Source: Ensifer sp. BR816 (GTDB lineage: Bacteria; Pseudomonadota; Alphaproteobacteria; Rhizobiales; Rhizobiaceae). From it: a DNA stretch of 64,000 nucleotides. The stretch's first letter is position 1; each line of letters starts with the position of its first letter. The position numbers and the translations under genes are program-made. Positions 18,422 to 35,602 of this stretch are shown piece after piece. The notes under the pieces were generated by a model. The model was not told where the DNA came from, made no database searches, and worked only from the letters and a program-made list of their open reading frames with translations. The stretch covers positions 3,124,604-3,188,603 of the forward strand of contig NZ_KB905370.1 of NCBI RefSeq assembly GCF_000378985.1, in the 5' to 3' direction.

Positions 18422-19855
18422 TCAGGTCCAGCGGGCGGACAGCCGCGCCTTGGGCGTGAAGTCGAAGTCGCGATCGAAGGGGAAGATCGGCCGCTGCCGC
18501 CGCTCGCTCGCGAGCTTCTCGATGTCCTGATTGACGACACCGTCGGTGAGCGCCAACAGGTTGGGATTGGCGATCGGCGCGAGTTCCGGTGAAAGGTAAC
18601 CGGACTTGACCACCAGCAGGCGGACCGCCTCTGGGTCGAGACCGAGCCGGCGGAAATCCTCGATATCGTGATAGGGGCGCCGCCGGGCCGAAAGCACGAC
18701 GGTGATGCCGCCCGCATCAACGACCGCCTGGCGCTCCGCAAGGGAGCCGGGATCGTCGAGCCTGACGACCTTCGCCGCGGCTTCGACGGCAGCGCTCGAG
18801 GGGTCGAGGCTCCCGCCGATCCGAAGGGCCAGGGTCGAACCCTCGCCTGCGGCAAAGCAGGCATCGACCGCCGGCTGATCGGCAATTCCGGCAATGAGCG
18901 CGCCCTGCCAATCACGTGCCAGAAGCGCCTTCAACACATCGGCACGGTCGCCGACGCCCCCGCCGGTCGGGTTGTCGCCGGAGTCCGCCAGAATGACCGG
19001 CTTCGTCGCCGCGCCTTCGGCAATGTCGAGCATCGCATCAAGGGTTCCGGTTACCGGACCGAAGCGGAAGTTTTCCCGGGAATCCCAGTAGCTTGCGGCG
19101 ATTTCCTCCGCCGCTTTCAAAGCGGCTTCCTGGTCCGATCCGGTCACGACCGCGCAGGCGGTGGAGCGCGGCTCATCCGCCCAGACGTAACCCACCATCA
19201 GATTGGCATCGAGAACCCCGGCCCGTTCATCAATCTCGGGCAGGATTCGATAAAGGCTTGCCGCAGGCTCATCCTCCGTCGAGGTCCTCTCTCCGGGCAG
19301 AAGCAGCGGCACCGGCGCCCAGGCGACGCCCGGTCGCGCGCCTGTGCGCAGCGCCTCGACCAGCATGGTCCAAGCCCGCACCATAGTCTCGCGCGTATCG
19401 ATATGCGGGGCCGTCCGGTAGGCAGCGAAGATGTCGATCTGGTCGATGATCCGCTGGCTGACATTGCCGTGCAGGTCATAGCTGACGGCAATCGGGCAGC
19501 TGGGACCGACGACGGCACGGGCGGCCGAAATCCAATCGCCCTCCGCATCGTCCAAGCCGTCGACCTTGATCGCGCCATGCATGGCGAGATACAGTCCGTC
19601 GACCGGCAGGGCGGCCTTCAACCCCTCCAGGAACTCCGCCTTGAAGGCCTCATAGGCCGGCCGCGAAACGGGTCCGCCGGGGACGGCGCGGGCATGGAGC
19701 AGCGGAACATGTTCCACATCCTCTGCGTCGAGGAAGCTGAAATAGTCGGCCCGCAGCAAGTCCTCGCCCCTCAGGACTCGAAAGTCCTCGACCGACATCA
19801 GCACGGGCGAATAGGTGCTGCATTCCGTATGGATTCCACCGACGGCGATCCGCAT
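18422..19855 (-). CDS. MlrC/M81-family metallopeptidase-like protein (copy 1)
   Basis: 477 residues from the ATG at 19855 (MRIAVGGIHTECSTYSP, the usual family N-terminus). A GTG at 19867 overlapping the GH20 stop is an alternative. Family hallmarks are GGIHTEC, LYLAMHGA, the metal-binding D-x-H in SYDLHGNVS, APHIDTRET, and DSGDNPTGGGVGD in the C-terminal MlrC domain. The named member, MlrC, cleaves the linear microcystin tetrapeptide. Cellular substrates elsewhere are largely unknown. It lies 8 bases downstream of GH20. A diverged paralogue is at 24552. Confidence 0.88.
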   Translation of the reverse strand: MRIAVGGIHTECSTYSPVLMSVEDFRVLRGEDLLRADYFSFLDAEDVEHVPLLHARAVPGGPVSRPAYEAFKAEFLEGLKAALPVDGLYLAMHGAIKVDGLDDAEGDWISAARAVVGPSCPIAVSYDLHGNVSQRIIDQIDIFAAYRTAPHIDTRETMVRAWTMLVEALRTGARPGVAWAPVPLLLPGERTSTEDEPAASLYRILPEIDERAGVLDANLMVGYVWADEPRSTACAVVTGSDQEAALKAAEEIAASYWDSRENFRFGPVTGTLDAMLDIAEGAATKPVILADSGDNPTGGGVGDRADVLKALLARDWQGALIAGIADQPAVDACFAAGEGSTLALRIGGSLDPSSAAVEAAAKVVRLDDPGSLAERQAVVDAGGITVVLSARRRPYHDIEDFRRLGLDPEAVRLLVVKSGYLSPELAPIANPNLLALTDGVVNQDIEKLASERRQRPIFPFDRDFDFTPKARLSARWT

Positions 19856-19863
19856 GCGCAAAC

Positions 19864-21783: not shown

Positions 21784-21805
21784 GGGCATCCTCCAATGGG
21801 ATTGG

Positions 21806-22582
21806 TCAATAATGGCTGGACTGCGAGAAGGTGCGGGCGAGTTCGGCCTGGCCGGCGGTGAGGCCGCAATCGACCGGCAGGCAGACGCCGGATATGGCGC
21901 CCGCCTGCGGCCCGGCCAGGAAATGGACGGCATTGGCGACGTCTTCGGGATTGACGATGCGCTGCAGCGGATACCAGCGTTTCGCCTCCTCGAAGACTTC
22001 CGGATTGGCAGCGGCGCGGGCCTCCCAGGCCCGGGTGCGCACCGTGCCCGGCGCGACCGCATTCGAGCGAATGCCGAACTTGCCGTATTCGACAGCGATC
22101 AGCCGGGTCAGATGCAGAAGGCCGGCCTTGGCGCAGCTGTAGGCCGGATGACCGAAAACGCTTATTCCGTTGACGGAAGCGATGTTGACGACCGAGCCCC
22201 TGCTCTCCTTCAGCATGTCCTCGACTGCCCGGAAGCAGAGGAAGGCGGCTTCGAGATTGAGGGCATTGTCCATCCGCCAGATGTCCTGCGTCGTTTCCTG
22301 CAGGCTGACGGCGCGCGCAGCGCCGGCATTGTTGACGAGCGTATGGACGACGCCAAGCGCGGCCGCGGCTGCGGCCATGGCGGTCACGCTCGCCGCATCC
22401 GTCACGTCGCAGGCGACGGCCGCGAACCGGTCCTCTGCGCCGAGATCGCGCGCAACTTCAGCTGCCGCATCGCCATCGATATCGGCGAGAAGGACGATGT
22501 CGTGTCCATCCAACAGGCGACGGGCGATGGCCCGGCCGATGTCGCCGGCTGCGCCTGTGACGATCGCTACGGATTTCGGCAT
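21806..22582 (-). CDS. Short-chain dehydrogenase/reductase (classical, active-site intact)
   Basis: 258 residues from the ATG at 22582 (MPKSVAIVTGA). An in-frame ATG at 22633 would overlap the RpiR gene. The NAD(P)-binding TGAAGDIGRA, NNAGAA, catalytic Ser in NIASVNG and YSCAKAG (Tyr-x-x-x-Lys) are all present. PVDCGLTAGQ near the C-terminus is typical of sugar- or polyol-type SDRs. It would oxidise or reduce a carbonyl/alcohol on a catabolic intermediate. It lies in the minus-strand unit between RpiR and GH20. Confidence 0.9.
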   Translation of the reverse strand: MPKSVAIVTGAAGDIGRAIARRLLDGHDIVLLADIDGDAAAEVARDLGAEDRFAAVACDVTDAASVTAMAAAAAALGVVHTLVNNAGAARAVSLQETTQDIWRMDNALNLEAAFLCFRAVEDMLKESRGSVVNIASVNGISVFGHPAYSCAKAGLLHLTRLIAVEYGKFGIRSNAVAPGTVRTRAWEARAAANPEVFEEAKRWYPLQRIVNPEDVANAVHFLAGPQAGAISGVCLPVDCGLTAGQAELARTFSQSSHY

Positions 22583-22601: not shown

Positions 22602-23465
22602 TCAGTCTCCGAGAAGCTGGCGATCGTCGCCATCCCTGTGCGCCACCAGCTGCTGCTTGATGCGCCTGAGCGTTGCAGTGGCCTGTGGCTGGACCCGATA
22701 GGCCACCAGGCTGGCAAGGATGTCGACCAGCGCCACATAGGCGATGCGCGTGGATGTCGGACGGTAGATGTTGTTGCCCTCAGGCAGATCGACCGGAACG
22801 GTGACGTCGGCGGCGCGAGCAACCGGGCTGCCGGTCTGGGTGAGCGCGATGGTCGGCACCTTGGCGTCGCGGGCGAGGCTGAAGGCGCGCACCAGCTCGG
22901 TGTTGCGCCCGGAAAAGGACGAGCCGATGATCACGTCGCTCTGCCTGGCCGCTGCCGCGAGCATCAATTGCATGCTGTGGTCGGAACTCGCGGTGATGCG
23001 CAAACCGAGACGGAACAGGCGGTTCTGCAGTTCCCCCGCGATCATCGAGGAATTGCCGCCCGATCCGAAGGCATAGATCATTTCCGCCCCGGCCAACCGG
23101 TCAGCGGCCTGTTCGAGGGCGGCAAGGTCGAGCGAGCGATGCAGCAGGAACAGCGCGTTCTGCGCCTTGGTGATGATGTCCTGGGCGACGTCGCCGGTCT
23201 CCTGGCTTTTCGGCTCGGGCTTGAGATAGCGCATACCGACATAGGCCGTACGTGCCAGTTGCACCTTGAAATCGGAAAAACTCTCGCAACCCAAGCGCCG
23301 ACAGAAGCGTGTCACCGTCGGCGGGGAGACATCAGCCTTGCCGGCGAGCTCGATGATCGATGCGTTGACGGCAAATTCGAAATCATTGAGCAGAATATCG
23401 GCGATCCGGCTTTCCGATTGCGAAAGCCGCTCCTTCTCATGCTGCAGGGTTGCGAAAATATCCAT
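22602..23465 (-). CDS. RpiR-family transcriptional regulator (HTH + SIS domain)
   Basis: 287 residues from the ATG at 23465, preceded by AGGAG. The N-terminal RpiR helix-turn-helix (IIELAGKADVSPPTVTRFCR) is followed by a SIS sugar-phosphate isomerase-like domain with FGSGGNSSMIAGELQNRL and GSSFSGRNTEL. RpiR/MurR proteins usually bind phosphosugars, including amino-sugar derivatives. It sits inside the RidA-RpiR-SDR-GH20-MlrC-MFS unit. Candidate operators are the TGAAA/TTTCA-type sites at 23947-24032, and possibly 35515-35602 in front of the sugar ABC operon. Confidence 0.9.
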   Translation of the reverse strand: MDIFATLQHEKERLSQSESRIADILLNDFEFAVNASIIELAGKADVSPPTVTRFCRRLGCESFSDFKVQLARTAYVGMRYLKPEPKSQETGDVAQDIITKAQNALFLLHRSLDLAALEQAADRLAGAEMIYAFGSGGNSSMIAGELQNRLFRLGLRITASSDHSMQLMLAAAARQSDVIIGSSFSGRNTELVRAFSLARDAKVPTIALTQTGSPVARAADVTVPVDLPEGNNIYRPTSTRIAYVALVDILASLVAYRVQPQATATLRRIKQQLVAHRDGDDRQLLGD

Positions 23466-23531
23466 CCGGACGGCCACTCCTATTTCTGATTGGGCCGCGG
23501 GATGCGGGCGGAAAACCGCACACACCTTTCC

Positions 23532-23933
23532 TTATCCCGCGACATGGGCGTCCTTAGGCTTGTAGGCGACGCAGTCGATCTCCACCTTGCAATCGACCAT
23601 CATCGAAGACTGCACGCAGGCACGGGCCGGCGGATGAGCTCCAAAATATTCCTGATAGATCTTGTTGAAGCTCCAGAAATCGCGCGGGTCGTCAAGCCAG
23701 ACGCCGACTCTCACCACATGCTGGATACCGTAGTCGGCCTCCCTCAAAATGGCCAGCAGATTGCCGATCGCCTTGTGGGTTTGCGCTACGATGCTGCCTT
23801 CGATCACCTCGCCGTTCTCCATGGCCACCTGCCCGGAGACGTAAAGCCAGCCGTCAGCTTCCACGGCTCGCGCGAAGGGCAGCGGTTTACCGCCCGCCCC
23901 CATCTGTTCGGCGCCATAACGTTTGAGTGACAT
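23532..23933 (-). CDS. RidA/YjgF/TdcF-family protein (copy 1)
   Basis: 133 residues, the standard trimer-subunit length. The substrate-carboxylate arginine is in ARACVQS, and the conserved YVSGQVA and VRVGVWLDD segments are visible. RidA proteins hydrolyse reactive enamine/imine intermediates made by PLP enzymes; other subgroups act in specific catabolic pathways. It is the first gene of the minus-strand RpiR unit, 66 bases upstream of rpiR. An AAAGGT ribosome site precedes its ATG. Its promoter region is shared with the divergent NTF2-like gene. Confidence 0.9.
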   Translation of the reverse strand: MSLKRYGAEQMGAGGKPLPFARAVEADGWLYVSGQVAMENGEVIEGSIVAQTHKAIGNLLAILREADYGIQHVVRVGVWLDDPRDFWSFNKIYQEYFGAHPPARACVQSSMMVDCKVEIDCVAYKPKDAHVAG

Positions 23934-23946
23934 TAGCGGACCTTTT

Positions 23947-24032
23947 GCAAATTATTTTCGTGTTGCGTTGACAAATCACCATACAAAGCGGAATTTGGCC
24001 AGAGAAAAACATAGTTCATGAAAAGAATTTCA
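23947..24032. promoter_or_regulatory. Divergent control region with two GAAAA-x-AATTT sites (candidate RpiR operators)
   Basis: In the 116-bp gap between RidA and the NTF2-like gene: site B GCAAATTATTTTCG (23947-23960), whose complement reads CGAAAATAATTTGC, and site A TGAAAAGAATTTCA (24019-24032), with TGAAA/TTTCA inverted arms. TTGCGTTGACAAA (23963-23975) lies between them. The same three elements, with identical 72-bp A-B spacing, precede the Gfo/sugar ABC operon (35515-35602). RpiR binding is inferred from location. Confidence 0.6.
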
Positions 24033-24049
24033 ATACGAGGCGAAAACAC

Positions 24050-24538
24050 ATGCGGGATCCCTTCCGGAATCCGTTCCCAGGCGGCGACGCCGCCAGGCAC
24101 TCTATCTGGGAGATGCTGGTGACCCGGGACATTGACGCTTTCCTCTCGGCCGACTGGTCGATGGTGGCGGGCGATTTCGTCGAAGACGGCTTCATCGGCA
24201 TCGACGGAAAGCGAAAGACCGATCCTGACGACTGGCGGCTCACCTTCCCGTCGCTCGCCGCCTATCGCGAAGAGTGGCTCCGCCAGGCACGGGACTTCGC
24301 CGAACAGTCCTTCGCCGAGGATGTGCGCACGGCGATCTTCACGACGACGACGCTCGAAGACATCGAAGTCAGTGGCGACCGGGCGCTCGCCCGCAAGAAG
24401 TTCGATGGCGAGATCAGGAAGGCCGACGGCAGCGTCGATGTCTTGAAGTGGCAAACGGTCTATTATTGCCGGCTGCATGAAGGCCGGTGGAAGATCTCTG
24501 GCTTCACCGGTTATCTGCCGAACCCGATGAGTGATTGA
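24050..24538 (+). CDS. SnoaL/NTF2-like domain protein of unknown function
   Basis: 162 residues with composition and pattern of the NTF2/SnoaL-like cone fold: an N-terminal helix (WEMLVTRDIDAFLSADWSMV), a middle helix, then C-terminal strands (FTTTTLEDIEVSGDRALARKKFDG, WQTVYYCRLHEGRWKISGF). No catalytic residues can be assigned; such proteins may be small isomerases/hydratases or ligand carriers. GAGG precedes the ATG. The TGAAA/TTTCA site A lies 18 bases upstream. It reads into the second MlrC gene 13 bases later, so the two are cotranscribed. Confidence 0.72.
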   Translation: MRDPFRNPFPGGDAARHSIWEMLVTRDIDAFLSADWSMVAGDFVEDGFIGIDGKRKTDPDDWRLTFPSLAAYREEWLRQARDFAEQSFAEDVRTAIFTTTTLEDIEVSGDRALARKKFDGEIRKADGSVDVLKWQTVYYCRLHEGRWKISGFTGYLPNPMSD

Positions 24539-24551
24539 GAGGGCGACGGCA

Positions 24552-26027
24552 TTGCGCATTTTCACAGCGGCCCTGGCGACCGAAACCAACACCTTCTCTC
24601 CGATCTGCATCGACAGGCGCGCCTTCGAAGCGTCGCTCTATGCGCCTCCGGGCAAGCATCCGGAAACGCCGACGCTCTGCACCGCGCCGATCACTGTCGG
24701 CCGCCGCGTGGCGGCCGAGAAGGGCTGGCAGCTGATCGAGGGAACGGCCGCCTGGGCGGACCCGGCCGGGCTGGTCAACCGGCAGACTTTTGAGGATTTG
24801 CGCGACGAGATCCTCGGGCAGTTGCGTGCGGCACTCCCGGTCGATGCCGTCGTGCTTGGCCTGCACGGGGCGATGGTCGCCGACGGCTACGAGGACACCG
24901 AGGGCGACCTCCTGGCGCGCGTGCGCGAGATCGTCGGGCCGGAAGTGCTCGTCTGCGTCGAGCTCGACCCGCACAGCCATCTCACCGAAAAGCGCGTCGC
25001 GGCCGCCGATTTCTTCGTCTTCTTCAAGGAATTCCCGCACACGGATTTCGTCGATCGCGCCGAAGACCTCTGGCGCATCGTCATCGATACGCTCGAAGGG
25101 CGCATCCGCCCGGTGATGTCGGTATTCGATTGCCGGATGATCGACGTGTTTCCGACATCGCGCGAACCGATGCGCAGCTTCGTCGACAAGCTGATAGGGA
25201 TCGAGCGCGAGGATCCGGACGTCCTGTCGCTGTCGGTCGTGCACGGCTTCATGGCCGGCGACGTCCCGGAAATGGGTACCAAGATGGTTGTCGTGACCGA
25301 CGGCCGCCCGGAGAGGGGTCAGACGCTCGCCCGCGAACTCGGCCTCGAACTTTTCGAAAGGCGCGGCACCTTCCGCATGCCGGAGATCGACGAGAGGCAG
25401 GCGGTCGCCGCGGCGATCGCAGCACCCGCCGGCCCGGTGGTCATCGCCGACATGTGGGACAATCCCGGCGGCGGCACGGCGGGCGATGCGACCGTGGTGC
25501 TGGAGGAGCTTCTCGCCAAAGGCGTCACCGATGCGGCGATCGGCACGATCTGGGATCCGATGGCCGTGCAGATCTGCATGGCGGCCGGCGAAGGCGCGGA
25601 AATCCCCTTGCGCTTCGGCGCAAAATCGGCTCCCGGCACGGGCGATCCGATCGACGGCACCGTCACGGTGGTACGGCTGGTGCGCAATGCCGAAATGCGC
25701 TTCGGCGAGAGCTTCGCGCCCTTCGGCGATGCCGCACACATCCAGTATCGCGGTATCGACATCATCTTGAATTCGACACGCGCCCAGAGCTTCGACCCGA
25801 GCCTGTTCTCGGTCATGGGTATCGATCCGAGCGCGAAGAAAATCCTGGTGGTCAAATCGACGAACCACTTCTACGCCTCATTCTCGAAGATCGCGTCGCA
25901 AATTCTCTACTGCTCGGCCGGAACACCCTACCCCAACGATCCGGCGAAAACGCCCTATCGGCGCGCGCGGCGCGATATCTGGCCGATCATGAGCGATCCG
26001 CACGCATCGGAGCTGGGCGCAGCTTGA
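24552..26027 (+). CDS. MlrC/M81-family metallopeptidase-like protein (copy 2)
   Basis: 491 residues. The TTG at 24552 is chosen because GAGAGGG lies 8 bases upstream and the product then begins (M)RIFTAALATETNTFSP, the family norm. A GTG at 24531 is weaker. Motifs: LGLHGAMVADGYED, ELDPHSHLT (D-x-H metal site), EFPHTDFVDRA, and the MlrC C-terminal DMWDNPGGGTAGDATVV. It is clearly diverged from copy 1, so the two probably act on different substrates or steps. The gene converges on the LysR gene with a 37-base gap. Confidence 0.88.
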   Translation: MRIFTAALATETNTFSPICIDRRAFEASLYAPPGKHPETPTLCTAPITVGRRVAAEKGWQLIEGTAAWADPAGLVNRQTFEDLRDEILGQLRAALPVDAVVLGLHGAMVADGYEDTEGDLLARVREIVGPEVLVCVELDPHSHLTEKRVAAADFFVFFKEFPHTDFVDRAEDLWRIVIDTLEGRIRPVMSVFDCRMIDVFPTSREPMRSFVDKLIGIEREDPDVLSLSVVHGFMAGDVPEMGTKMVVVTDGRPERGQTLARELGLELFERRGTFRMPEIDERQAVAAAIAAPAGPVVIADMWDNPGGGTAGDATVVLEELLAKGVTDAAIGTIWDPMAVQICMAAGEGAEIPLRFGAKSAPGTGDPIDGTVTVVRLVRNAEMRFGESFAPFGDAAHIQYRGIDIILNSTRAQSFDPSLFSVMGIDPSAKKILVVKSTNHFYASFSKIASQILYCSAGTPYPNDPAKTPYRRARRDIWPIMSDPHASELGAA

Positions 26028-26064
26028 TGGAAAGGCCGCGGCCGGGGGGCGTCCCAGCTTGCTG

Positions 26065-26961
26065 TCAGGGCGGTGATGCCGCCTCTTCTTTCAGCCATGA
26101 GGCGAACGCCTCGGCGCCGGGGCTGAGCCGTCGGTTTTGCGGTAAGACGATCCAGTAGGCGATCTGGTCGGACCGGACGGAATGCGCGAAAGGTTGCACG
26201 AGCCGCCCGGCCGACAGATGGTCGCGCACCATATTGAGGCGCCCGATCGCAACGCCCTGCCCGTTGAGAGCAGCTTGAAGCACGATGTTGTAGTCGGTCA
26301 GTTGAAGCATCCGGCCGCGCCGATAATCGACACCGGCTTCGCCGCACCAAAGCTGCCAGTCCACGAGCTTGCTGGACTCGAGCAGGGTCTGGGCGAGCAA
26401 ATCCGTCGGCCTGGCGAAGCGTGATCCATCCCCATAGAGCGTCGGGCTCAACACGGGGCTTAGCTCTTCATTCATCAACCGCTCCGCCATCACCCCATCC
26501 CACTGCCCGGCGCCGAAGCGGATGGCGAGGTCGACATCGCCGGTTTCGAAGGTCGTGAGACCCAATGTCGGATCGAGTTCGACCTCGATCTCAGGATGCC
26601 CGATCATGAATCGGGAAAGGCGGGAGACCAGCCAGTTGGCGGCAAAGGAGGGAAGGACGCTGACGCGCACGCGTTGCCGGACCGCGCGGCGGCGCATCTC
26701 GGAAGTCGCGCCGGCGATGATCCCGAAGGCTTCGGTGGTCCTGCCGAGATAGGCCGCCCCCTCGGCCGTCAATTCGATGCTCTTGGCTTTGCGGACGAAC
26801 AGCCGCACGCCGAGCGTGTCCTCGAGCTGCTTGATGTGGTGGCTTACGGCACTCTGGGTGATCAGCAACTCTTCGCCCGCCCTGCGGAAGCTGAGCAAGC
26901 GGCCCACCGCCTCGAAAGCCCGCAAGGCCTGCAGCGGCGGCATGGTGCTGGATGTACGCAT
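26065..26961 (-). CDS. LysR-family regulator, GcvA-like
   Basis: 298 residues from the ATG at 26961 (MRTSSTMPPLQALRAFEAVG); 26943 is an alternative ATG. The winged HTH SFRRAGEELLITQSAVSHHIKQLE is followed by the periplasmic-binding-like effector domain. The GcvA/AmpR-type N-terminus PPLxALRAFEA and the VLPSFAANWLVSRL opening of the effector domain support the subgroup. It is divergent from the RidA2-aminotransferase pair, the likely target, with an inverted repeat CTATGG/CCATAG between them. Confidence 0.9.
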   Translation of the reverse strand: MRTSSTMPPLQALRAFEAVGRLLSFRRAGEELLITQSAVSHHIKQLEDTLGVRLFVRKAKSIELTAEGAAYLGRTTEAFGIIAGATSEMRRRAVRQRVRVSVLPSFAANWLVSRLSRFMIGHPEIEVELDPTLGLTTFETGDVDLAIRFGAGQWDGVMAERLMNEELSPVLSPTLYGDGSRFARPTDLLAQTLLESSKLVDWQLWCGEAGVDYRRGRMLQLTDYNIVLQAALNGQGVAIGRLNMVRDHLSAGRLVQPFAHSVRSDQIAYWIVLPQNRRLSPGAEAFASWLKEEAASPP

Positions 26962-26972
26962 GGGTTTTTTCA

Positions 26973-27004
26973 CTATGGCATTAGCCTGATCGATCGCACC
27001 ATAG
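26973..27004. promoter_or_regulatory. Inverted repeat in LysR/RidA2 divergent promoter
   Basis: CTATGG (26973-26978) and CCATAG (26999-27004) form exact 6-bp arms 20 bases apart. Flanking bases extend the match to 7 of 8. The repeat lies 11 bases upstream of the LysR start codon and 68 bases upstream of RidA2. This is plausible for LysR autoregulation and activation; no binding evidence is available from sequence alone. Confidence 0.5.
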
Positions 27005-27071
27005 CGCAGTTTGAATTGGAAGCAATCGCAGGACCGTCGCATTCTCCCGGCATTTCCAACGGGAGACCGCC

Positions 27072-27545
27072 ATGTCAGCAACCATCGCATCCAAACTCTC
27101 CGCCCTCGGCCATCGACTGCCGGAAGCCTCAGCGCCGGCGGCGAATTACGTCTCGACGGCTCGAGCCGGCAACCTCCTTATCGTCTCGGGCCAGATCAGC
27201 GTCAGAGACGACGAGGTCCTGACCGGGATCCTCGGCACCGGTGTTTCGCACGAGGAAGGTCGCATCGCGGCCGAATACGCTGCGATCAGCGTCCTGTCGC
27301 AGATTGCCACTGCGACCGATGGCACGTTGGCAGCGGTCCGGCGTGTCGTTCGGCTCGGGGTCTTCATCGCCTCGACGCCGGACTTTGCGGAGCACTCGCA
27401 GGTCGCCAATGGCGCATCGGACCTGTTCGTCGCGGTGTTCGGCGAAGCGGGGCGGCACGCGCGTGCCGCAGTGGGCGTGGCCGCGCTGCCCGCCGGTGCC
27501 ATGGTCGAGGTCGATGCACTGGTGGATCTGGAGCCTGCGGCATGA
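27072..27545 (+). CDS. RidA/YjgF-family protein (copy 2, long form)
   Basis: 157 residues, about 25 longer than canonical RidA because of a longer N-terminus and an insert. The core has NLLIVSGQISVRDDE, VRRVVRLGVFIAS and ARAAVGVAALPAGAMVEVDAL, the last with the arginine usually contacting substrate. The sequence is distant from copy 1 at 23532. Its stop overlaps the start of a PLP class V aminotransferase (ATGA), which fits the known role of RidA-type proteins in clearing imines formed by PLP enzymes. A GGGAGACC ribosome site precedes the ATG. Confidence 0.85.
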   Translation: MSATIASKLSALGHRLPEASAPAANYVSTARAGNLLIVSGQISVRDDEVLTGILGTGVSHEEGRIAAEYAAISVLSQIATATDGTLAAVRRVVRLGVFIASTPDFAEHSQVANGASDLFVAVFGEAGRHARAAVGVAALPAGAMVEVDALVDLEPAA

Positions 27546-28732
27546 ACGATGCACTCGACGTGGAGCAGCTTCGTACGGAGACTCCCGGCTGCGCGGCTGG
27601 AATGCACTTCAATCATTCCGGCGCCTCGCTGCCCTCGCAATCGGTGCTTGCGGCGATCTGGGACTATCTCCGCCACGAAGCGCTCGAGGGACCGATGGAG
27701 GCGGCAAATGGAGCGAGCGCGCTTCTCGAAGAGGTGCGCGCCGATATGGCCGCGCTCATCGGTGCCAATCCGAACGAGATTGCCTTCCTCGGCAGCGGCT
27801 CGACCGCCTGGGGCGCGGCTTTCTCGGCCTTGCCGCCGCTTGTTGCGGGCGACCGCATTCTCGTCGGTCGTCAGGAATGGGGCGGCAATCTCGCCACGAT
27901 GCAGAATGCCGCGGCCCGGGCCGGAGCACGGATCGAGACCATTCCCGTCCGTGTCGACGGCGGCGTCGACGCCTCGGCGCTGGCATCGATGATCGACGAT
28001 CACGTGCGCCTCGTATCGCTCACATGGGTGCCCGCGAATGGTGGCCTGATCAACGATGCGGCGGCCGTGGGCCGCGTGACCAAGGCGTCCGGCATTCCCT
28101 ATTTCATCGATGCGGGCCAGGCTCTCGGCCAGATCCCCATCGACGTCACTACGCTCGGATGTGACGTATTGAAGGCCGCGGGCCGGAAATTTCTTCGAGG
28201 ACCGCGCGGAACGGCGGTCCTCTATGTCAGGCAAGAGTTCCTGCCACGGCTGACGCCGAGTTCTCTCGATGTGCTTTCGGGGCCGATCGTCGACGGGGTC
28301 GTCAAGATTCGTAACGACGCCCGCCGGTTCGAAGCAGGCGAGATTTCCCCGGCGCTGATTTTCGGATTGGGCGCTGCCATTCGCCAGGCACGGTCGCTCG
28401 GCATCGAGGCAATTCGTGCGAGGATCAACACCCTGGCGAATGAATTGCGCGACAATCTGCGCGGCATTCCGAAAGTGACGCTGCGGGATCTCGGAACGGA
28501 ACTCTCCGGCATAGTCTCCTTCACCGTCGAAGGCATTCCCGCAGCCAACGCTCGCGCAGCCCTCGCCGAAAGGAAAATCGCGATCGGTGCGAATGGTGTT
28601 CCCTATACGCCGCTCGACATGACCGCACGGGGACTCGACCAGATCGCCAGGGCATCGGTAAGCTATCTGAACACCCCATCGGAGATTGCCTTTCTGTCCG
28701 AGGCAGTCGCCGACATAGCAAGGCGAGCGTGA
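27542..28732 (+). CDS. Class V aminotransferase / cysteine desulfurase-like PLP enzyme
   Basis: 396 residues from the ATG at 27542. NifS/isopenicillin-epimerase-like fold type I: FNHSGASLPSQSV at the N-terminus, the cofactor segment IPYFIDAGQALGQIP, and the probable Schiff-base lysine in AAGRKFLRGPRGTAVLYV. The RGPRG motif after the lysine is shared with class V lyases and epimerases. No SufS-type catalytic Cys loop is obvious, so a lyase, racemase or aminotransferase is likelier than a desulfurase. It is translationally coupled to RidA2 and probably controlled by the divergent LysR. Confidence 0.87.
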   Translation: MNDALDVEQLRTETPGCAAGMHFNHSGASLPSQSVLAAIWDYLRHEALEGPMEAANGASALLEEVRADMAALIGANPNEIAFLGSGSTAWGAAFSALPPLVAGDRILVGRQEWGGNLATMQNAAARAGARIETIPVRVDGGVDASALASMIDDHVRLVSLTWVPANGGLINDAAAVGRVTKASGIPYFIDAGQALGQIPIDVTTLGCDVLKAAGRKFLRGPRGTAVLYVRQEFLPRLTPSSLDVLSGPIVDGVVKIRNDARRFEAGEISPALIFGLGAAIRQARSLGIEAIRARINTLANELRDNLRGIPKVTLRDLGTELSGIVSFTVEGIPAANARAALAERKIAIGANGVPYTPLDMTARGLDQIARASVSYLNTPSEIAFLSEAVADIARRA

Positions 28733-28806
28733 CAGCGCTCATCATCATCCGCCAGCCTGTGAACGCGTGAGGGCAGCCTGGCAAAACGTGAAAATCGGAG
28801 CATGCG

Positions 28807-29586
28807 ATGGATCTGGGTATAAAAGGCAAGCGGGCGCTGGTTTGCGCCGGTTCGAAGGGGCTGGGCCGCGGCGTTGCGGAAAAACTCGCCGAGGCGGGCG
28901 TTATCCTGACGCTCAATGCCCGCGAACCGAAACAGCTTCGCGAGACGGCGCGCGCCATCAGCAAGGACTTTGGCGTTCAAGTCGAAATCGTCGCCGCCGA
29001 CGTGACAACCGAGGAGGGCCGCAATGCCGTCCTGCGGGCGGAGCCGCGGCCGGACATACTGATCACCAATGCCGGCGGCCCGCCGCCGGGTGATTGGTCG
29101 AGCGTGACGGAAGGCAACTGGCTGGAGGCAATCAGGACAAACATGCTGGCGCCGATCCTGCTCATGAAGGCGGTCATTCCCGGCATGATCGAGCGGAAGT
29201 GGGGACGGATCGTCAACATCACCTCTGCCTCGGTGAAGTCGCCGATCCCGGAACTCTGTCTTTCCAATGGCGCCCGCACCGGGCTTACCGGCTTCGTCGC
29301 CGGCACGGCCCGTCAGGTCGCCCGCCACGGCGTCATCATCAACAATCTGCTGCCCGGTTCGCATGAGACGGAGCGTCTGGAAAAGCTCCTCGAAAAATCC
29401 GCAAAGGCTCGCGGGGTTTCACTCGATCAGGTTCGCGCCGAGGAATATGCGCAGAACCCGACCGGACGCGTCGGCACGCCGAGCGAGTTCGGCGCCGCCG
29501 CGGCATTCCTCTGCAGCCAGTATGCCGGCTATATCGTCGGCCAGAACCTGCTGCTCGACGGCGGCGCGCTGAACTCGACGCTGTGA
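28807..29586 (+). CDS. SDR-fold protein with altered catalytic residues
   Basis: 259 residues with an SDR Rossmann fold: cofactor loop CAGSKGLGRG, TNAGGPPPG, GRIVNITSASV with the catalytic-type Ser, and a GGALNSTL C-terminus. In alignment with FabG the Tyr-x-x-x-Lys pair is replaced by Ser153-Asn-Gly-Ala-Arg157, so the normal proton donor and lysine are missing. An atypical FabG-like subgroup with a poorly conserved site is known. It may be non-canonical or non-catalytic. It lies 74 bases after the aminotransferase and is probably in the same unit. Confidence 0.88.
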   Translation: MDLGIKGKRALVCAGSKGLGRGVAEKLAEAGVILTLNAREPKQLRETARAISKDFGVQVEIVAADVTTEEGRNAVLRAEPRPDILITNAGGPPPGDWSSVTEGNWLEAIRTNMLAPILLMKAVIPGMIERKWGRIVNITSASVKSPIPELCLSNGARTGLTGFVAGTARQVARHGVIINNLLPGSHETERLEKLLEKSAKARGVSLDQVRAEEYAQNPTGRVGTPSEFGAAAAFLCSQYAGYIVGQNLLLDGGALNSTL

Positions 29587-29597
29587 AGTGTGGGCCG

Positions 29598-29612
29598 CCC
29601 GGCGACGCCGGG
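29598..29612. terminator. Short GC hairpin between convergent SDR and GNAT genes
   Basis: 6-bp stem CCCGGC (29598-29603) / GCCGGG (29607-29612) with a 3-base loop fills the 27-base gap between convergent stops. It lacks a T-run, so any role in transcript ending is tentative. Confidence 0.4.
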
Positions 29613-29613
29613 T

Positions 29614-30114
29614 TCAGTCGGCGATGCGTCGAACCATGATGATATCGTCGACTTCCCGGCCGTTGCGAATGCAGCCGCCGGGAATGCGGCCGACCGCCTC
29701 GAACCCCTCTCGGCGATAGAAGGCGATTGCTGTCGCGTTCTCGGCGCTGACCGACAGCTCCAATTGCCGGATGCCTTCACTCCGCGCGTGGTCAGTCACG
29801 GCCGTGAGAAGCAGCCGGGCAACACCGGTTCCTCGCGTGCTCCGATTGACGTAAACCATGACGACGGTGGCGCGGTGCGCCATCTTGCTGGCACGCTGCC
29901 GCAGCAGGCCCATGATGCCCACCGGTTCACCAGTGCGGAATGCGACGAAGACGGGATTGTCGGTCAGCCGCCGACGCCATTCGTCGTCCGGCAGCTTCTC
30001 CCAATCCTCGGCGCTGCTGGCGAAGGAATCGGGCTCCATTCGCAGCGCTTCGAGCCGAATGCGCCGAAAGGGTTCGACGTCGTCCTGGCCGAGCAGTCGT
30101 ATCGAGATGCTCAC
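29614..30114 (-). CDS. GNAT-family N-acetyltransferase
   Basis: 166 residues from the GTG at 30114, 2 bases after the ATPase stop. A GNAT fold with the acetyl-CoA pyrophosphate loop in STRGTGVARLLLTAV (R-G-T-G-V-A), strand MVYVNRS before it, and C-terminal NATAIAFYRREGFEAVGRIPG, typical of the family. Substrate unknown. Its place as the last gene of the sugar ABC operon suggests an amine-bearing substrate such as an amino sugar, which is inference only. Confidence 0.87.
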   Translation of the reverse strand: MSISIRLLGQDDVEPFRRIRLEALRMEPDSFASSAEDWEKLPDDEWRRRLTDNPVFVAFRTGEPVGIMGLLRQRASKMAHRATVVMVYVNRSTRGTGVARLLLTAVTDHARSEGIRQLELSVSAENATAIAFYRREGFEAVGRIPGGCIRNGREVDDIIMVRRIAD

Positions 30115-30116
30115 CC

Positions 30117-31247
30117 TCAGGCCGCCGGATCGAACAGGGCAAGATCGATGTCTGTCATCTCGACGCGACGCTCGAACGCGGTGCCGTTTTCGTCGAACAG
30201 GTGGCAATCGGCCGCGCGTATGCCGGTCGTGACCTGATCGTCCGTCCGGATGGCAGCGGTGCCCGGCAGCATGGCGCAATAATTCTCGCCCTCGCCACCG
30301 ATCCCAGCATAGGCGACGGTGTGCGCACCAAGGCGCTCGATGACCGAGGGATTGACGGTCAGCGTCAGGTCGCCGGCGCCCATCTGGATATGCTCCGGCC
30401 GAACGCCGAGCGTCAGCGTGCGGCCAACCATGCCGCTGCGCGGGGCGACGGGAACAAGCGCCGTCTGGCCTCGATAGTCGACCTCGACGCCGGCATCGCT
30501 CGCACCCGTACAGGTGACCGGGAGGAAGTTCATCTTCGGATGGCCTATGAAGCCAGCGACGAAAATGTTGGCCGGTTTGTGATAGAGCTCGAGCGGCGCG
30601 CCGGTCTGGGCGATTTCACCGGCATTCAGCACGACGATCCGGTCCGCCATCGTCATCGCCTCGACCTGGTCGTGGGTGACGTAGATCATCGTTGCCTTCA
30701 ATTGCCGGTGCAACTTGGCAAGCTCGATACGCATGTCGGCGCGCAGCGCCGCGTCGAGGTTCGAGAGCGGTTCGTCGAAGAGAAATATCTTCGGCTCGCG
30801 CACGATCGCCCGGCCGATCGCCACGCGCTGACGCTGGCCACCCGAGAGCATGCCCGGCTTCTGCTGCAGGCGCTGGTCGAGATGGAGAATGCGCGCCGCA
30901 TGCTCGACCTTCGACTTGAGCTTCTCCTCGGCCAGCTTTTCCACCCGCAGCGGAAAGGCGATGTTCTCGAACACGGTCATGTGCGGATAGAGCGCATAGG
31001 ACTGGAAGACCATGGCAATGCCGCGCTTGACCGGCGGCAGGTCGTTGACCCGCTTGCCGTCGATGACGATGTCGCCTGCCGTCGTCTCGTCGAGGCCGGC
31101 GATCATTCGAAGCAGGGTGGACTTGCCGCAGCCGGAGGGCCCGACGAAGACCACGAACTCACCGTTCTTCACCTCGAGCTCGATGCTCTTCAGCACCTCG
31201 TAGGTGCCGTAGGATTTCTGAACCCGTTTGAGATTGAGCTGTCCCAA
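30117..31247 (-). CDS. Sugar ABC transporter ATP-binding protein (UgpC/MsmK/MalK type)
   Basis: 376 residues from the TTG at 31247, supported by a GGAGA site 9-10 bases upstream and by the family-typical start (M)GQLNLKRVQKSYG. Walker A GPSGCGKST, signature LSGGQRQR, Walker B IFLFDEPLSNLD and TLGVRPEHIQMG in the C-terminal TOBE/regulatory domain are intact. It energises the CUT1-type permeases encoded upstream in the same operon. It follows the binding-protein gene after an 86-base gap with a strong hairpin. Confidence 0.93.
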   Translation of the reverse strand: MGQLNLKRVQKSYGTYEVLKSIELEVKNGEFVVFVGPSGCGKSTLLRMIAGLDETTAGDIVIDGKRVNDLPPVKRGIAMVFQSYALYPHMTVFENIAFPLRVEKLAEEKLKSKVEHAARILHLDQRLQQKPGMLSGGQRQRVAIGRAIVREPKIFLFDEPLSNLDAALRADMRIELAKLHRQLKATMIYVTHDQVEAMTMADRIVVLNAGEIAQTGAPLELYHKPANIFVAGFIGHPKMNFLPVTCTGASDAGVEVDYRGQTALVPVAPRSGMVGRTLTLGVRPEHIQMGAGDLTLTVNPSVIERLGAHTVAYAGIGGEGENYCAMLPGTAAIRTDDQVTTGIRAADCHLFDENGTAFERRVEMTDIDLALFDPAA

Positions 31248-31296
31248 GTAACTATCTCCGGCCACGGCGAATGCGGCTTGTCCGCGAACATGAGGA

Positions 31297-31326
31297 GGGA
31301 CCGCGCGGGGCAAGCCTCGCGGTCCC
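31297..31326 (-). terminator. Intra-operon hairpin after the sugar-binding-protein gene
   Basis: Perfect 9-bp stem GGGACCGCG (31297-31305) / CGCGGTCCC (31318-31326), starting 7 bases past the binding-protein stop on the minus strand. No T-run follows. It probably stabilises the upstream mRNA or partly attenuates ATPase expression. Confidence 0.7.
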
Positions 31327-31333
31327 GATGCGC

Positions 31334-32548
31334 TTACTTGTACTGTTCGAGGTCGGCCGCCGCCTTCTTCAGGGCATCGGCCGGCTCGGCCTTGCCGGTA
31401 ACGACCGACTGGACCATCTCGATCATCGTGTTCTGAAGACCCTTATAGTCGGTGAACAGCGGTTCCGGCCCACCGAAGGAAATACCGTCGATGAACGGCT
31501 TCCAGTAAGGGTTGGCCGCAACCATGTCGTTGACCGCCTTGCCCGGACGCAGCGGCGTCAAGCCCTCCTGGGCCTCGTAGATCGGCTGGTTCTCGGCATT
31601 GGTCAGGAATTTGGCGAATTCGATCGCCTTTTCCTCGACGTCAGTGCCGCTGAAGACGGCGAGGCTGTCCGTGATCAAAAGCGTGCCCTGCCCCTTGGCG
31701 CTCGGGCCGAGCGGCAGCGGTGCGACGCCCCAGTCGATCTTCGTTTCCTTGAGCCGGTTCACCGCGCCGACCGAGGCGTGGATCATGCCGAGCTTGCCGT
31801 CGAGGAAGATCGCCCGAACCTCGTTCTGCTCATAGGAGGTCGGCCCTTCCTCGGCATAGGGAACGATGTCCTTGAGCGCCGTCAGCGCTTCGAGGTTTTC
31901 CTTGCTGTCGAGCGTGATCTTGCCGTCCGCATCGATCACCGAGCCGTTATTGGTGTAAACCCAATGCAGGAACTGGTGCATGGTGTTGTCGAAAGTCTTG
32001 GCGACCACGCCGAAGCCCGCAATGCCGGTCTTCTCCTTGATGGTCTTGGCGTATTCCAGCTCTTCCGCCCAGGTCGTCGGCGGCTTCTCCGGGTCGAGGC
32101 CGGCCTGCTTGAACAGTGCCTTGTTCCAATAGAGCGACTTGGTCGAGAAGGCGACCGGAACGCCCCATTGCTTGCCGCCGGTCGTCACCGTGTCCATGAT
32201 ATAGGGGTAGTAGGATTTCTTCTCTTCCTCCGTGAAGGTGATCGGCACGATCAGCTCGTTATCCGCGAATTCCTTGAGCGTGCGCGAGCCAACATAGGCG
32301 AGCGCCACGGGCGTGCCGGAAGCGGCAAGCGTCGTCACCTTGTCCTGGCATTGGCCCCAGCCGACCACTTCCGAGGCGATCTTGTAGCCGGGATTGGCCG
32401 CCTCCCATTTCTTGATGAAATCGGCATGCGCCGGCTGCATCTTGTCGCCGCAGGCGAGGAAGGTGATCTCTGTGTCAGCCAAGGCAGGCAGTGCTGTCGT
32501 GGCGAGAAGCGCGAAAGTTCCGGCAATCAATGAGGCATGCTTTGTCAT
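31334..32548 (-). CDS. Sugar ABC transporter substrate-binding protein (CUT1 family)
   Basis: 404 residues with a Sec signal peptide (cleavage after ALPALA, residue 24). The family-1 extracellular binding fold shows FIKKWEAANPGYKI near the start, VPVAFSTKSLYWNKALFKQAGLDP, and KAIEFAKFLTNAENQ near the end. Many aromatic residues (Trp/Tyr) suggest a carbohydrate ligand; the specific sugar cannot be read from sequence. A GAGGGGAA ribosome site precedes the ATG. Confidence 0.92.
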   Translation of the reverse strand: MTKHASLIAGTFALLATTALPALADTEITFLACGDKMQPAHADFIKKWEAANPGYKIASEVVGWGQCQDKVTTLAASGTPVALAYVGSRTLKEFADNELIVPITFTEEEKKSYYPYIMDTVTTGGKQWGVPVAFSTKSLYWNKALFKQAGLDPEKPPTTWAEELEYAKTIKEKTGIAGFGVVAKTFDNTMHQFLHWVYTNNGSVIDADGKITLDSKENLEALTALKDIVPYAEEGPTSYEQNEVRAIFLDGKLGMIHASVGAVNRLKETKIDWGVAPLPLGPSAKGQGTLLITDSLAVFSGTDVEEKAIEFAKFLTNAENQPIYEAQEGLTPLRPGKAVNDMVAANPYWKPFIDGISFGGPEPLFTDYKGLQNTMIEMVQSVVTGKAEPADALKKAAADLEQYK

Positions 32549-32582
32549 GGTATTCCCCTCGCTTATGAGCTCGTTGTTGCGG

Positions 32583-33440
32583 TTACTGTTTCACGGCGCC
32601 GGCGGTCAGGCCCGCGACGAGATAGCGTTGCATCAGGAAGATGAGGATGACTGCCGGCGCGATGCCGACGAAACTCGCCGCCATCAGCTCGTTCCAGATG
32701 ACTTCCTGCCGGCCGAAATAGGCATAGAGCCCGATCGGCAGCGGCATGTATTCGGTCTTCGAGTTGAAGGTCAGCGCGAAGATGAATTGCTGGGCATAGG
32801 AACCGATGAAGGTGGTGATCGCGACGACGGTGATGCCCGGCATGGCGATCGGCAGGATCACCCGGCGCAGCGTGTAGAAATGGCTCGCCCCGTCGACGAA
32901 GGCCGCCTCGTCCAGTTCCCGCGGGATGCGCATCATGTAGGTGCGCAACAGCCAGATGCCCGAGGGGATGAGGAAAGCGACGCCCGGCACGATCATCGCG
33001 AAATAGGTGTTGAGCACGCCGAGACTGCGCATCAGCCGGAAGAGCGGAATGAGCAGCACCGCGCCGGAAAACATATTGACCGCCAGGAACGCCGCCAGCA
33101 GCGCGCCGCTGCCGCGGAACTTGAAGCGGGCAAAGGCGTAGGCGGACGGCACGACCAGCACCAGCACGACCGCGGTGACGATGGTCGAGATGAAGAAGGA
33201 ATTGAAGATGTAGCGGGCAAAGCCCGGCACGCTCACCCACATCGTGCGATAGGCCTCGAAGGAACCGTTCTCCGGCAGGAAGCGATAGGGGGAGGAAAAC
33301 AAGAGCCCGAGCGGCTTCAGCGACACCAGGAAGCCCTCGACGAAGGGGGAGAGGATGAAGCTCAGGAAGACGAAGATACCCGCATAGATGCCGGCGAGCT
33401 CGTACCAGCGATAGCGGTTGATCATGGCGGGCTGGTTCAT
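32583..33440 (-). CDS. Sugar ABC transporter permease (MalG-like)
   Basis: 285 residues with about six membrane helices and a MalG-type EAA loop (ELDEAAFVDGASHFYTLRRVILPIAMPGI) that couples to the ATPase. Its ATG overlaps the stop of the upstream permease (ATGA). It forms a heterodimeric channel with the product of 33437-34321. Confidence 0.92.
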   Translation of the reverse strand: MNQPAMINRYRWYELAGIYAGIFVFLSFILSPFVEGFLVSLKPLGLLFSSPYRFLPENGSFEAYRTMWVSVPGFARYIFNSFFISTIVTAVVLVLVVPSAYAFARFKFRGSGALLAAFLAVNMFSGAVLLIPLFRLMRSLGVLNTYFAMIVPGVAFLIPSGIWLLRTYMMRIPRELDEAAFVDGASHFYTLRRVILPIAMPGITVVAITTFIGSYAQQFIFALTFNSKTEYMPLPIGLYAYFGRQEVIWNELMAASFVGIAPAVILIFLMQRYLVAGLTAGAVKQ

Positions 33441-34321
33441 CGGCTTTCTCCCGAGGCAAGACGGTGGGTGACGCGGAAATAGGCGATGCAGAAGATCGAC
33501 AGGAAGATGCAGATCAGCACGGCGCGCGCCGCCCCCTCCCCGTATTTCTTCGAGCCGATAGCGGTGCGATAGGTGTCGATGATCATCGTCGTCGTGTCGC
33601 CGTTCGGGCCGCCCTGGGTCAGGATCCAGATGATGTCGAAGGAGTTGAAGGTGGCGATCAGCGACAGCATCGACATGGTGATCATCGACGGCACCAGCAG
33701 CGGCAGGGTGATGCGGCGGAAGCGGTAGAAGCGCCCTGCCCCGTCGGTCCAGGCGGCCTCGTAGAGATCCTGCGGAATCGCCTGCATCGAGGCGAGCATG
33801 TAGAGCGTCACCAGCGGCACGCCGATCCAGACGTCGGTGATGATCGTCGCCCAGAAGGCCGTCGAGCCGTGCGCGAGGAAGGCGACCGGCCCGTCGACCA
33901 GCCCCGAGTTCTGCAGCATGCCGGAGATCATCCCGAACTGGCCGTTATACATCCAGCCCCACATGAAGATGCCGATCGCCATCGGCACGATCCAGGGCGG
34001 CATGGTCAGCACCCGGAACAGCGCCCGTCCCGGCACGGCGGCGTTCAGCATCACTGCGCCGAAGGTGCCGATGATCATCTTGATCGTCACGGAAAAAGCG
34101 GTCCAGACGAAGGTGCGGGCGATCACTTCCGCAAAGGTGGCGTTGAAGATCTTATCGTAGTTGGCGGTGCCCACCCAGTTGGTCGTCTTCTTCAGCGAGG
34201 CATCCGTAAAGGAGAGGATGAACGTATCGACCAGCGGATAGGCGACGATCACCGTCACGTAGAGCACGGCTGGAAAAAGCAGGATCCAGGCGAAGATGAC
34301 GGTGCTGCGGCGAACACTCAT
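33437..34321 (-). CDS. Sugar ABC transporter permease (MalF-like)
   Basis: 294 residues from the ATG at 34321 with an AGGAA site upstream; an ATG at 34345 overlaps the previous gene. About six helices and an EAA loop (DLYEAAWTDGAGRFYRFRRITLPLLVPSM). It lacks the large MalF periplasmic P2 loop, as in most CUT1 importers. Partner of the adjacent MalG-like permease. Confidence 0.92.
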   Translation of the reverse strand: MSVRRSTVIFAWILLFPAVLYVTVIVAYPLVDTFILSFTDASLKKTTNWVGTANYDKIFNATFAEVIARTFVWTAFSVTIKMIIGTFGAVMLNAAVPGRALFRVLTMPPWIVPMAIGIFMWGWMYNGQFGMISGMLQNSGLVDGPVAFLAHGSTAFWATIITDVWIGVPLVTLYMLASMQAIPQDLYEAAWTDGAGRFYRFRRITLPLLVPSMITMSMLSLIATFNSFDIIWILTQGGPNGDTTTMIIDTYRTAIGSKKYGEGAARAVLICIFLSIFCIAYFRVTHRLASGESR

Positions 34322-34334
34322 CCCTCGTTCCTCG

Positions 34335-35495
34335 TCAGGCCGCACGGGCGTGCAGGGCTTCGTCGAAGCGGTCCCAGAGCGGTCTGAGATCGACGACCTG
34401 CCGCTTCATGCGCGCCTCGTCGATGGAGAGCGCCAGGATGCCGGCCTCCAGTGCATCGAGCGGCGAGACGGGGAGCGGACCGCCATGCTGGACGTGGGCG
34501 ACGATCTCGGCCGCCATCTGCTCGTCCGCACCATAGTGCTGGGAGAGCGCCGTCTCCTTGGCATATTTCTTCTCGACCACTTTCTTGCCGGAGAGCACCT
34601 CGTGCACGTCGAGATAGCCGCGGATGAAGTCGCCCTCCGCCATGCCGCGCGATCCCATCACGCAGAAACGGCGGAACTGGTCCGGAACATTGAGGTTGGT
34701 GTGGAAATTCATCGCCACGCCATTGGCGTATTCGATGATCGCAACCTGATAGTCGATGATGTCGCCGTCGCTGTCGAAGACCTTGTCGGAAGCGAGCCAG
34801 CCGCTCGGCTTGCTATGGAAAAGCTGCAGGTCGTTGATGCCGTCGCGGGCCGGATCATTGGGGGGCGTGAAGCTCTTGCGGCCACCGAAACTCGCCACCC
34901 GCTCCGGCCGGGCGCCGACGACGCCGTTGTAGAGATCGAGGTCGTGGCAGCACTTTTCCAGCATGAAGCTGCCGGCATAGCGTCCGTAGCGGCGCCAGTC
35001 GCGCATGAAGAAGGCGCCATGATAGGGTTCGATGTGCTCGGCCGCCTCGATCGAAACGATCTCGCCGAGCGTTCCGGCGGCCTGGGCGGCGCGAAGGTCG
35101 CGATACATCGGCGCATAACGCAGGACCAGCCCCACCATCAGCCGGTCGTGGCCATGTTTCGCCAGGAGCGCCGCAAGCTCGACGCTCTGCTCGATGGTGC
35201 TGACGATCGGCTTTTCGCAGAACACCTTGAGGCCTGCCTCTAGACCGATGCGGATATGGTCGAGATGCATGTGGTTCGGAGAGCCGATCATCAGTAGGTC
35301 GAGCTTCTCGCCGGCGATCAGTTCCTCGGGCGTGGCATAGGCCTTTCCCGCCGAAATGCCGTTTTCCGCGAGCGTGGCAAGGCCGGCCGGCGCCGGATCG
35401 ACATAGCCCGCGATCTCGAAGTTCTCGTCGATCGCCTTGAAGACATAGCCCAGATATCCAAGACGGAATCCGAGTCCGATTATCCCGACCTTCAT
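34335..35495 (-). CDS. Gfo/Idh/MocA-family NAD(P)-dependent oxidoreductase
   Basis: 386 residues. An N-terminal Rossmann fold (KVGIIGLGFRLGYLG) is followed by the EKP-type catalytic motif CEKPIVSTIEQSVEL and a C-terminal substrate domain with a C-C-H-D-L-D segment near EKCCHDLDLYNGV. Family members oxidise sugars, inositols or sugar derivatives. It is the first gene of the sugar ABC operon, 13 bases before the first permease, so it most likely acts on the imported compound. It is preceded by the shared regulatory architecture at 35515-35602. Confidence 0.92.
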   Translation of the reverse strand: MKVGIIGLGFRLGYLGYVFKAIDENFEIAGYVDPAPAGLATLAENGISAGKAYATPEELIAGEKLDLLMIGSPNHMHLDHIRIGLEAGLKVFCEKPIVSTIEQSVELAALLAKHGHDRLMVGLVLRYAPMYRDLRAAQAAGTLGEIVSIEAAEHIEPYHGAFFMRDWRRYGRYAGSFMLEKCCHDLDLYNGVVGARPERVASFGGRKSFTPPNDPARDGINDLQLFHSKPSGWLASDKVFDSDGDIIDYQVAIIEYANGVAMNFHTNLNVPDQFRRFCVMGSRGMAEGDFIRGYLDVHEVLSGKKVVEKKYAKETALSQHYGADEQMAAEIVAHVQHGGPLPVSPLDALEAGILALSIDEARMKRQVVDLRPLWDRFDEALHARAA

Positions 35496-35514
35496 GCTGA
35501 TGCCGTTCCCATTT

Positions 35515-35602
35515 CGTAATTATTTTTCGTAGACTGGGATAGAATTTTCGTTGCGTCAACAAAAATTCGAATATTCGAAGAGATTGTGAAATTCATTTTC
35601 AC
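35515..35602. promoter_or_regulatory. Upstream control region of sugar ABC operon: two GAAAA-x-AATTT sites plus palindrome
   Basis: Site D CGTAATTATTTTTCG (35515-35529; complement CGAAAAATAATTACG) and site C GTGAAATTCATTTTCAC (35586-35602, perfect 6-bp arms) start 72 bp apart (35515 and 35587 for the TGAAA core). TTGCGTCAACAAA (35551-35563) lies between them, as does a perfect 14-bp palindrome TTCGAATATTCGAA (35566-35579). The first three match the layout at 23947-24032. This is the probable operon promoter; the regulator is inferred to be the RpiR protein. Confidence 0.6.

Follow-up and report, generated by a model that had tools for sequence, protein, structure and literature searches.

A 64,000-nucleotide stretch of Ensifer sp. 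BR816 (contig NZ_KB905370.1, positions 3,124,604 to 3,188,603; hereafter the window) carries a gene unit in which a RidA family gene precedes an RpiR-family regulator, and an operon in which a Gfo/Idh/MocA oxidoreductase (Gfo) precedes a sugar-type ATP-binding cassette (ABC) transporter. Are both under one regulator, and through what arrangement of sites? A first-pass annotation had described two similar sites starting 72 bp apart before each unit, and proposed that a single RpiR protein controls both, possibly by looping. The sites, their conservation, their linkage to the regulator and their phase-locked spacing can be read directly from the DNA. On this basis we consider it likely that a HexR-like RpiR protein binds operator pairs at the RidA and Gfo units, as well as at a third, Opp-type transporter operon, and that its tetramer loops the DNA over the promoter; that RpiR is the binder, that it represses rather than activates, that a loop forms and that an effector releases it is what we infer beyond the sites themselves. 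The four candidate operators of the window are as follows.

23946..23960, minus strand: RidA-unit gene-proximal operator (op2), CGAAAATAATTTGCA
24019..24032, minus strand: RidA-unit upstream operator (op1), TGAAATTCTTTTCA
35515..35529, minus strand: Gfo-operon gene-proximal operator (op2), CGAAAAATAATTACG, beginning 1 base past the putative -10
35587..35601, minus strand: Gfo-operon upstream operator (op1), TGAAAATGAATTTCA

All four sites and both 72-bp spacings (23947/24019 and 35515/35587) are exactly as first described, and the first site of each pair does lie 14 or 20 bases from a minus-strand start codon (RidA 23933 and Gfo 35495, respectively). The GAAAA-x-AATTT core that all four were said to share is found at 23947 and 24019, and the Gfo sites read instead GAAAA-TG-AATTT and GAAAAATAATTACG. 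The sites are better described as a 15-bp near-palindrome, about NGAAAATAAWTTACA at the gene-proximal and about TGWAAATNAWTTWCA at the upstream position; within RidA op2, GAAAATAATTTGCA is invariant in all 28 RidA promoters of the genus. Weak single matches to the motif occur in the window at chance level (11 against 7.2 expected with up to three mismatches, a count reached by 13 of 100 window shuffles), so the case rests on conservation. Neither these matches nor the 106 found in the genome with up to two mismatches (12 in the reversed control) were used as evidence, except for the one pair through which the Opp operon came to light.

An alignment of 28 RidA and 21 Gfo upstream regions from the genus contains both operators in every sequence, in poorly conserved flanks. 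When 11 more Gfo promoters were checked by pattern (these stayed outside the spacing test described below), the Gfo pair was spaced by exactly 72 bp in 32 of 32, while the distance from op2 to the ATG varied between 16 and 27. The RidA pair, counted on 15-base sites, is 73 bp apart in 27 promoters and 72 bp apart in one. Paired sites are also present in other families of the order. At L014 and L030 there is no RidA match, and an operator pair can be read by eye directly before RpiR.

The regulator and its presumed targets travel together. RpiR orthologs were found in 32 of the 33 genus genomes and Gfo in the same 32; the sole exception, G028, has neither. Both operator pairs are retained in G018, G002 and G031, where RpiR and Gfo lie on one contig 1.13, 0.70 and 0.30 Mb apart. 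Across the order, clear RpiR orthologs (above 320 bits) occur in 34 of 397 genomes, this one included. Outside the genus, the Gfo-ABC operon genes are present in 32 of 33 RpiR-ortholog regions, the exception (L195) being a short contig, and in 17 of the 33 loci RpiR stands in line and on the same strand after the genes for Gfo, two permeases, the substrate-binding protein (SBP) and the ATPase, with GH20 next after RpiR in 16 of those 17. What is split in the window is therefore a single gene run elsewhere, which may be read as one transcript. The pattern formed by the -35 element and op2 is present in 23 of the 34 order genomes with an RpiR ortholog versus 12 of the 363 without. The proposal of one RpiR for both units gains comparative support from the in-line loci and the joint absence in G028, and a split regulon that ties the transporter to the GH20, MlrC and RidA enzymes, with the same operators at both units even when these are far apart, is well supported by these comparisons.

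Is the distance between the operators itself constrained? We built a site model that drew only on gene-proximal sites from gene classes other than the one tested, supplied no spacing, and scored all offsets between 20 and 150 upstream as far as the sequence reached (the outgroup RidA stretches allowed 91-107 offsets). In 92 promoters, the best partner site fell at 72-74 bp in 84 and at 93-95 bp in 8, that is, at about 7 and 9 helical turns; among 9,200 base shuffles, 77 scored as high as the real sequence. The longer distance belongs to five Gfo promoters of family f16 (genus g87; 94-95 bp) and three Opp promoters of genus g158 (93-94 bp), and 73 and 94 bp differ by 21 bp, or two helical turns. 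Left out of the 92 were 12 promoters of clade f6 with no second site and the Gfo promoter of L200 with no site; loci whose Gfo start lies outside the stretch (L187, L194, L199 and L202); loci with no Gfo match (L190, L195, L201, L203, L204 and L205) or no RidA match (L201, L014 and L030); and Opp loci without a pair (L227, L243, L244 and L245). An operator pair separated by about an integral number of turns, as in a Lac-like loop, was found in 92 of 92 promoters and in all 12 matches of the family-wide scan reported below, against none of the 12 f6 promoters. Such phase-locked spacing favours a looping tetramer, and suggests that the regulator may bend the DNA into a small loop.

The third arm came from a loose two-site pattern that matches this genome twice, at the Gfo promoter and before an Opp-type operon (SBP_bac_5-OppB-OppC-OppDF) 1.3 Mb away, with no match in the reversed control. 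The pattern fits the Gfo pair, cannot fit the 14-base RidA site, and also matched unrelated places in other genomes scanned. Close relatives of the Opp operon exist in other genera of the family: among 22 Opp loci, this one included, an M81/MlrC match is present in 19, an RpiR relative (57-62% identity) lies nearby in 16, and the operator pair was found at 18. In this genome and in G431 the Opp pair stands without a local RpiR. A scan of 394 family genomes that left the gap between op1 and TTGAC free (63-95 bp start to start; blind to sites with T at position 3) returned 12 matches and no control match. Nine of them are spaced by 72-73 bp and three by 93-94 bp, and 11 are Opp places already in the examined set. 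The new match, in G767, precedes GH20, a 552-residue open reading frame at the SBP position and homologs of OppB, OppC and OppDF (31-47% identity), and thereby joins the GH20 and Opp arms; a search for RpiR, confined to these 18 kb, found none. The regulon is probably larger than first proposed, and a single sugar-sensing regulator probably governs a number of distinct gene sets for uptake and enzymes by way of site pairs of fixed spacing. As a side observation, in this genome a short stretch between the operator pair and OppA (L091:8217-8424; G000:C1 about 4452217-4452424) resembles the C-terminus of M81/MlrC, whose gene occupies that place in most related loci. The match covers 20 residues with a score of 58; 200 shuffles of the same frame gave at most 47, and a shuffle of another frame reached 58. 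This likeness is suggestive only.

Several observations weigh against this picture. In clade f6 (genera g9 and g109) 12 of 12 Gfo promoters keep op2 and no op1 was found, shuffles reaching the best op1 score in 723 of 1,200 cases; the pair is therefore not universal. The Gfo promoter of L200 has no site and 4 of the 22 Opp loci have no pair. No spacing of 8 turns (about 83 bp) was seen, and the long spacing comes from two clades. The genomes are related rather than independent, so the counts overstate independence, and the Opp promoters were admitted to the spacing test only after a pair had been found. Within the genus (21 genomes searched) the Opp arm occurs in this genome only: five others encode proteins about 50% identical, and the upstream sequence read there contains no pair; in the scan with the pair pattern, none of the other 19 genus genomes showed the Opp pair. 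Finally, no sugar kinase is listed in the syntenic stretch of Sinorhizobium meliloti. We also observed that the f6 sequences upstream of Gfo (L062, L174-L183 and L193) share a conserved block around ATTGGTAT at the place where op1 would be expected.

How could a pair of this kind act? Around the operators we recognized the following putative promoter elements.

35554..35559, minus strand: putative Gfo -35 (TTGACG), its TTGAC ending 25 nt upstream of op2
35531..35536, minus strand: putative Gfo -10 (CAGTCT), after a 17-bp spacer, a weak match
23968..23973, plus strand: putative -35 (TTGACA) of the divergent hypothetical/MlrC unit, in a conserved block
23991-23996, plus strand: putative -10 (GAATTT) of the divergent hypothetical/MlrC unit

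The end of TTGAC/T lies 25 nt upstream of op2 in 21 of 21 genus Gfo promoters, in all 12 of f6, all five of f16 and all three of g158, and in 10 of 15 other Opp and two of five other Gfo promoters. No good -35 or -10 could be seen by eye for the RidA unit, and TTGAC/T was not found upstream of op2 in 27 of 28 genus RidA promoters, lying at 27 nt in the remaining one. Since the RidA promoters lack the TTGAC geometry and still show the same distance between operators, the conserved quantity runs from operator to operator. The element TTGCGT-x-x-ACAAA, which each pair had been said to enclose, does stand at 23963 and 35551, and matches to it in the window are few (three with at most one mismatch, against 0.47 expected). 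It overlaps TTGAC boxes on opposite strands (TTGACG of Gfo on the minus strand and TTGACA of the divergent unit on the plus strand) and, within the genus, occurs in 3 of 32 Gfo promoters and in 1 of 28 RidA promoters; we rejected it as a third shared signal.

In the mechanism we favour, the RpiR protein (22602-23525) would bind paired 15-bp near-palindromic operators at each controlled unit: its own RidA-RpiR-SDR-GH20-MlrC2 unit (SDR, short-chain dehydrogenase/reductase) with the divergent hypothetical-MlrC genes, the Gfo-sugar ABC operon and the Opp-type ABC operon. At the Gfo and Opp promoters the start point is expected to fall within op2, which would begin about one base past the -10, with op1 72-74 bp upstream of op2, or 93-95 bp in two clades, and the promoter in between. 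Two dimers of one tetramer could then grip the two operators and draw the DNA between them into a short loop that would exclude the polymerase until an effector released it; this effector might be a phosphorylated amino-sugar derivative of the compound taken up.

The main rival keeps the shared RpiR regulon and lets the sites act separately, op2 blocking the start and op1 serving as an upstream activator site of class I, which would also need phasing. At about -71 or -92 from the predicted start, op1 would also suit the geometry of a class I activator. The constant distance from TTGAC to op2 at most Gfo and Opp promoters places op1 in phase with the promoter as well; for HexR the proposed scheme is repression from sites downstream and activation from sites upstream (PMC11906056), and NanR of Streptococcus pneumoniae, of the same family, is an activator (PMC12713135). 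However, the 27 RidA promoters without TTGAC/T upstream of op2 nevertheless hold their operators 72-73 bp apart, and we judge this explanation unlikely. Less likely again are independent RpiR dimers on two sites that form no loop, the spacing being inherited from an ancestral promoter. Orthologous promoters do have a common ancestry, and RccR of Pseudomonas occupies two 15-bp palindromes 68 bp apart (gap or start-to-start) before aceE with no mention of a loop in the main text (PMC5489143). Inheritance fits poorly, though, with a distance to the ATG that drifts while the operators stay 72 bp apart in 32 of 32 genus Gfo promoters, or with longer spacings set off by about 21 bp in two clades. 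Moreover, when the spacers of eight representatives are compared across promoter classes, identity is 24-42%; the common layout is thus no recent copy. It is very improbable that the sites belong to some other regulator, RpiR paralog or not, since the weak RpiR-family matches elsewhere in the genome include none above the HexR cut-off and the RpiR orthologs follow the sites and units across genera.

The protein we take as the looping regulator passes the Pfam cut-offs for HTH_6 (66.2 bits; cut-off 28.3) and SIS (48.8 bits; cut-off 25), and has the N-terminal HTH_6 and C-terminal SIS of the MurR/RpiR family. Its top NCBIfam model is HexR (NF008451), with 195.6 bits, and it is the genome's top match to that model. 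No protein of this genome passes the 296-bit cut-off, and a true HexR was rejected as the binder. The genes of the two units are listed below.

23532..23933, minus strand: RidA family gene, first in the RpiR unit
22602..23525, minus strand: RpiR-family regulator (HTH_6 and SIS), start codon uncertain
21806..22576, minus strand: SDR oxidoreductase, start uncertain
19864..22062, minus strand: GH20 beta-N-acetylhexosaminidase, start uncertain
18422..19867, minus strand: second M81/MlrC-like protein (MlrC2), under the NCBIfam cut-off for true microcystinase
24050..24538, plus strand: conserved hypothetical protein, divergent
24531..26027, plus strand: M81/MlrC-family protein, divergent
34335..35495, minus strand: Gfo/Idh/MocA oxidoreductase, first in the transporter operon
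30117..34345, minus strand: sugar-type ABC transporter (permease, permease, SBP at 31334-32548, ATPase at 30117-31313)

The hypothetical protein (24050-24538) has no match in Pfam or NCBIfam and adjoins MlrC in 16 of 16 loci of window-like layout. The genome is of Sinorhizobium type: among the plasmid records listed for the window, where those of its own genome may be absent, the best are Sinorhizobium at 88%. Plasmid pSymA of S. meliloti carries the same genes packed closer than in the window. Between MlrC and the ABC operon, the window has a LysR gene, a class V aminotransferase and an SDR (26065-29586), in place of which pSymA has VOC and GNAT genes.

The combination of GH20, M81 and Opp points tentatively to an amino-sugar-peptide compound as the substrate. 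A more general proposition, which we hold tentatively and place a shade below even, is that the HexR-like RpiR family of this order may follow a fixed rule: operator pairs flanking the promoter about 7 or 9 turns apart, joining GH20, M81/MlrC, RidA, Gfo and two unrelated ABC transporters in shuffled combinations, possibly for amino-sugar-peptide uptake and breakdown, with looping built in. For M81/MlrC, GH20, RidA and two transporters whose role is poorly known, the regulon points to a common regulator and perhaps also to a common substrate. Among the matches listed from titles and abstract openings of open-licence literature the regulon was not found, and a report by locus tag could be missed there.

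Among the RpiR regulators of the papers considered, which are tetramers, looping has been proposed for one member (PMC12713135), and operator spacing in helical phase across three promoter types makes looping directly and cheaply testable. The closest relative by model, HexR, an RpiR-family regulator of central carbon metabolism, has HTH_6 and SIS in common with the window protein, and by eye a predicted and a putative HexR site (TGTAATTAAATTACA and TGAAAAAAAATTACA; PMC11906056) are very like the operator consensus. The window RpiR differs in falling below the cut-off, in the genes concerned and in its paired, phase-locked sites. RccR, whose two sites before aceE give a double peak in chromatin immunoprecipitation (PMC5489143), is tetrameric, as are the published RpiR structures (PMC12713135), but has a different core (TGTAGT/ACTACA) and also uses 28-bp sites (PMC5489143). 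NanR of S. pneumoniae binds near-palindromic 18-bp sites such as TCTGAAAGTACTTTTAGA, and a preprint describes it as dimer-tetramer and proposes looping (PMC12713135). Unlike the repressor proposed here, it activates, from five sites over the nan cluster for which the available part of that source describes no fixed two-site spacing. The Lac repressor, though of a different protein family, offers the parallel of operator pairs that support short-range repression loops of 6-8 turns (PMC5081198).

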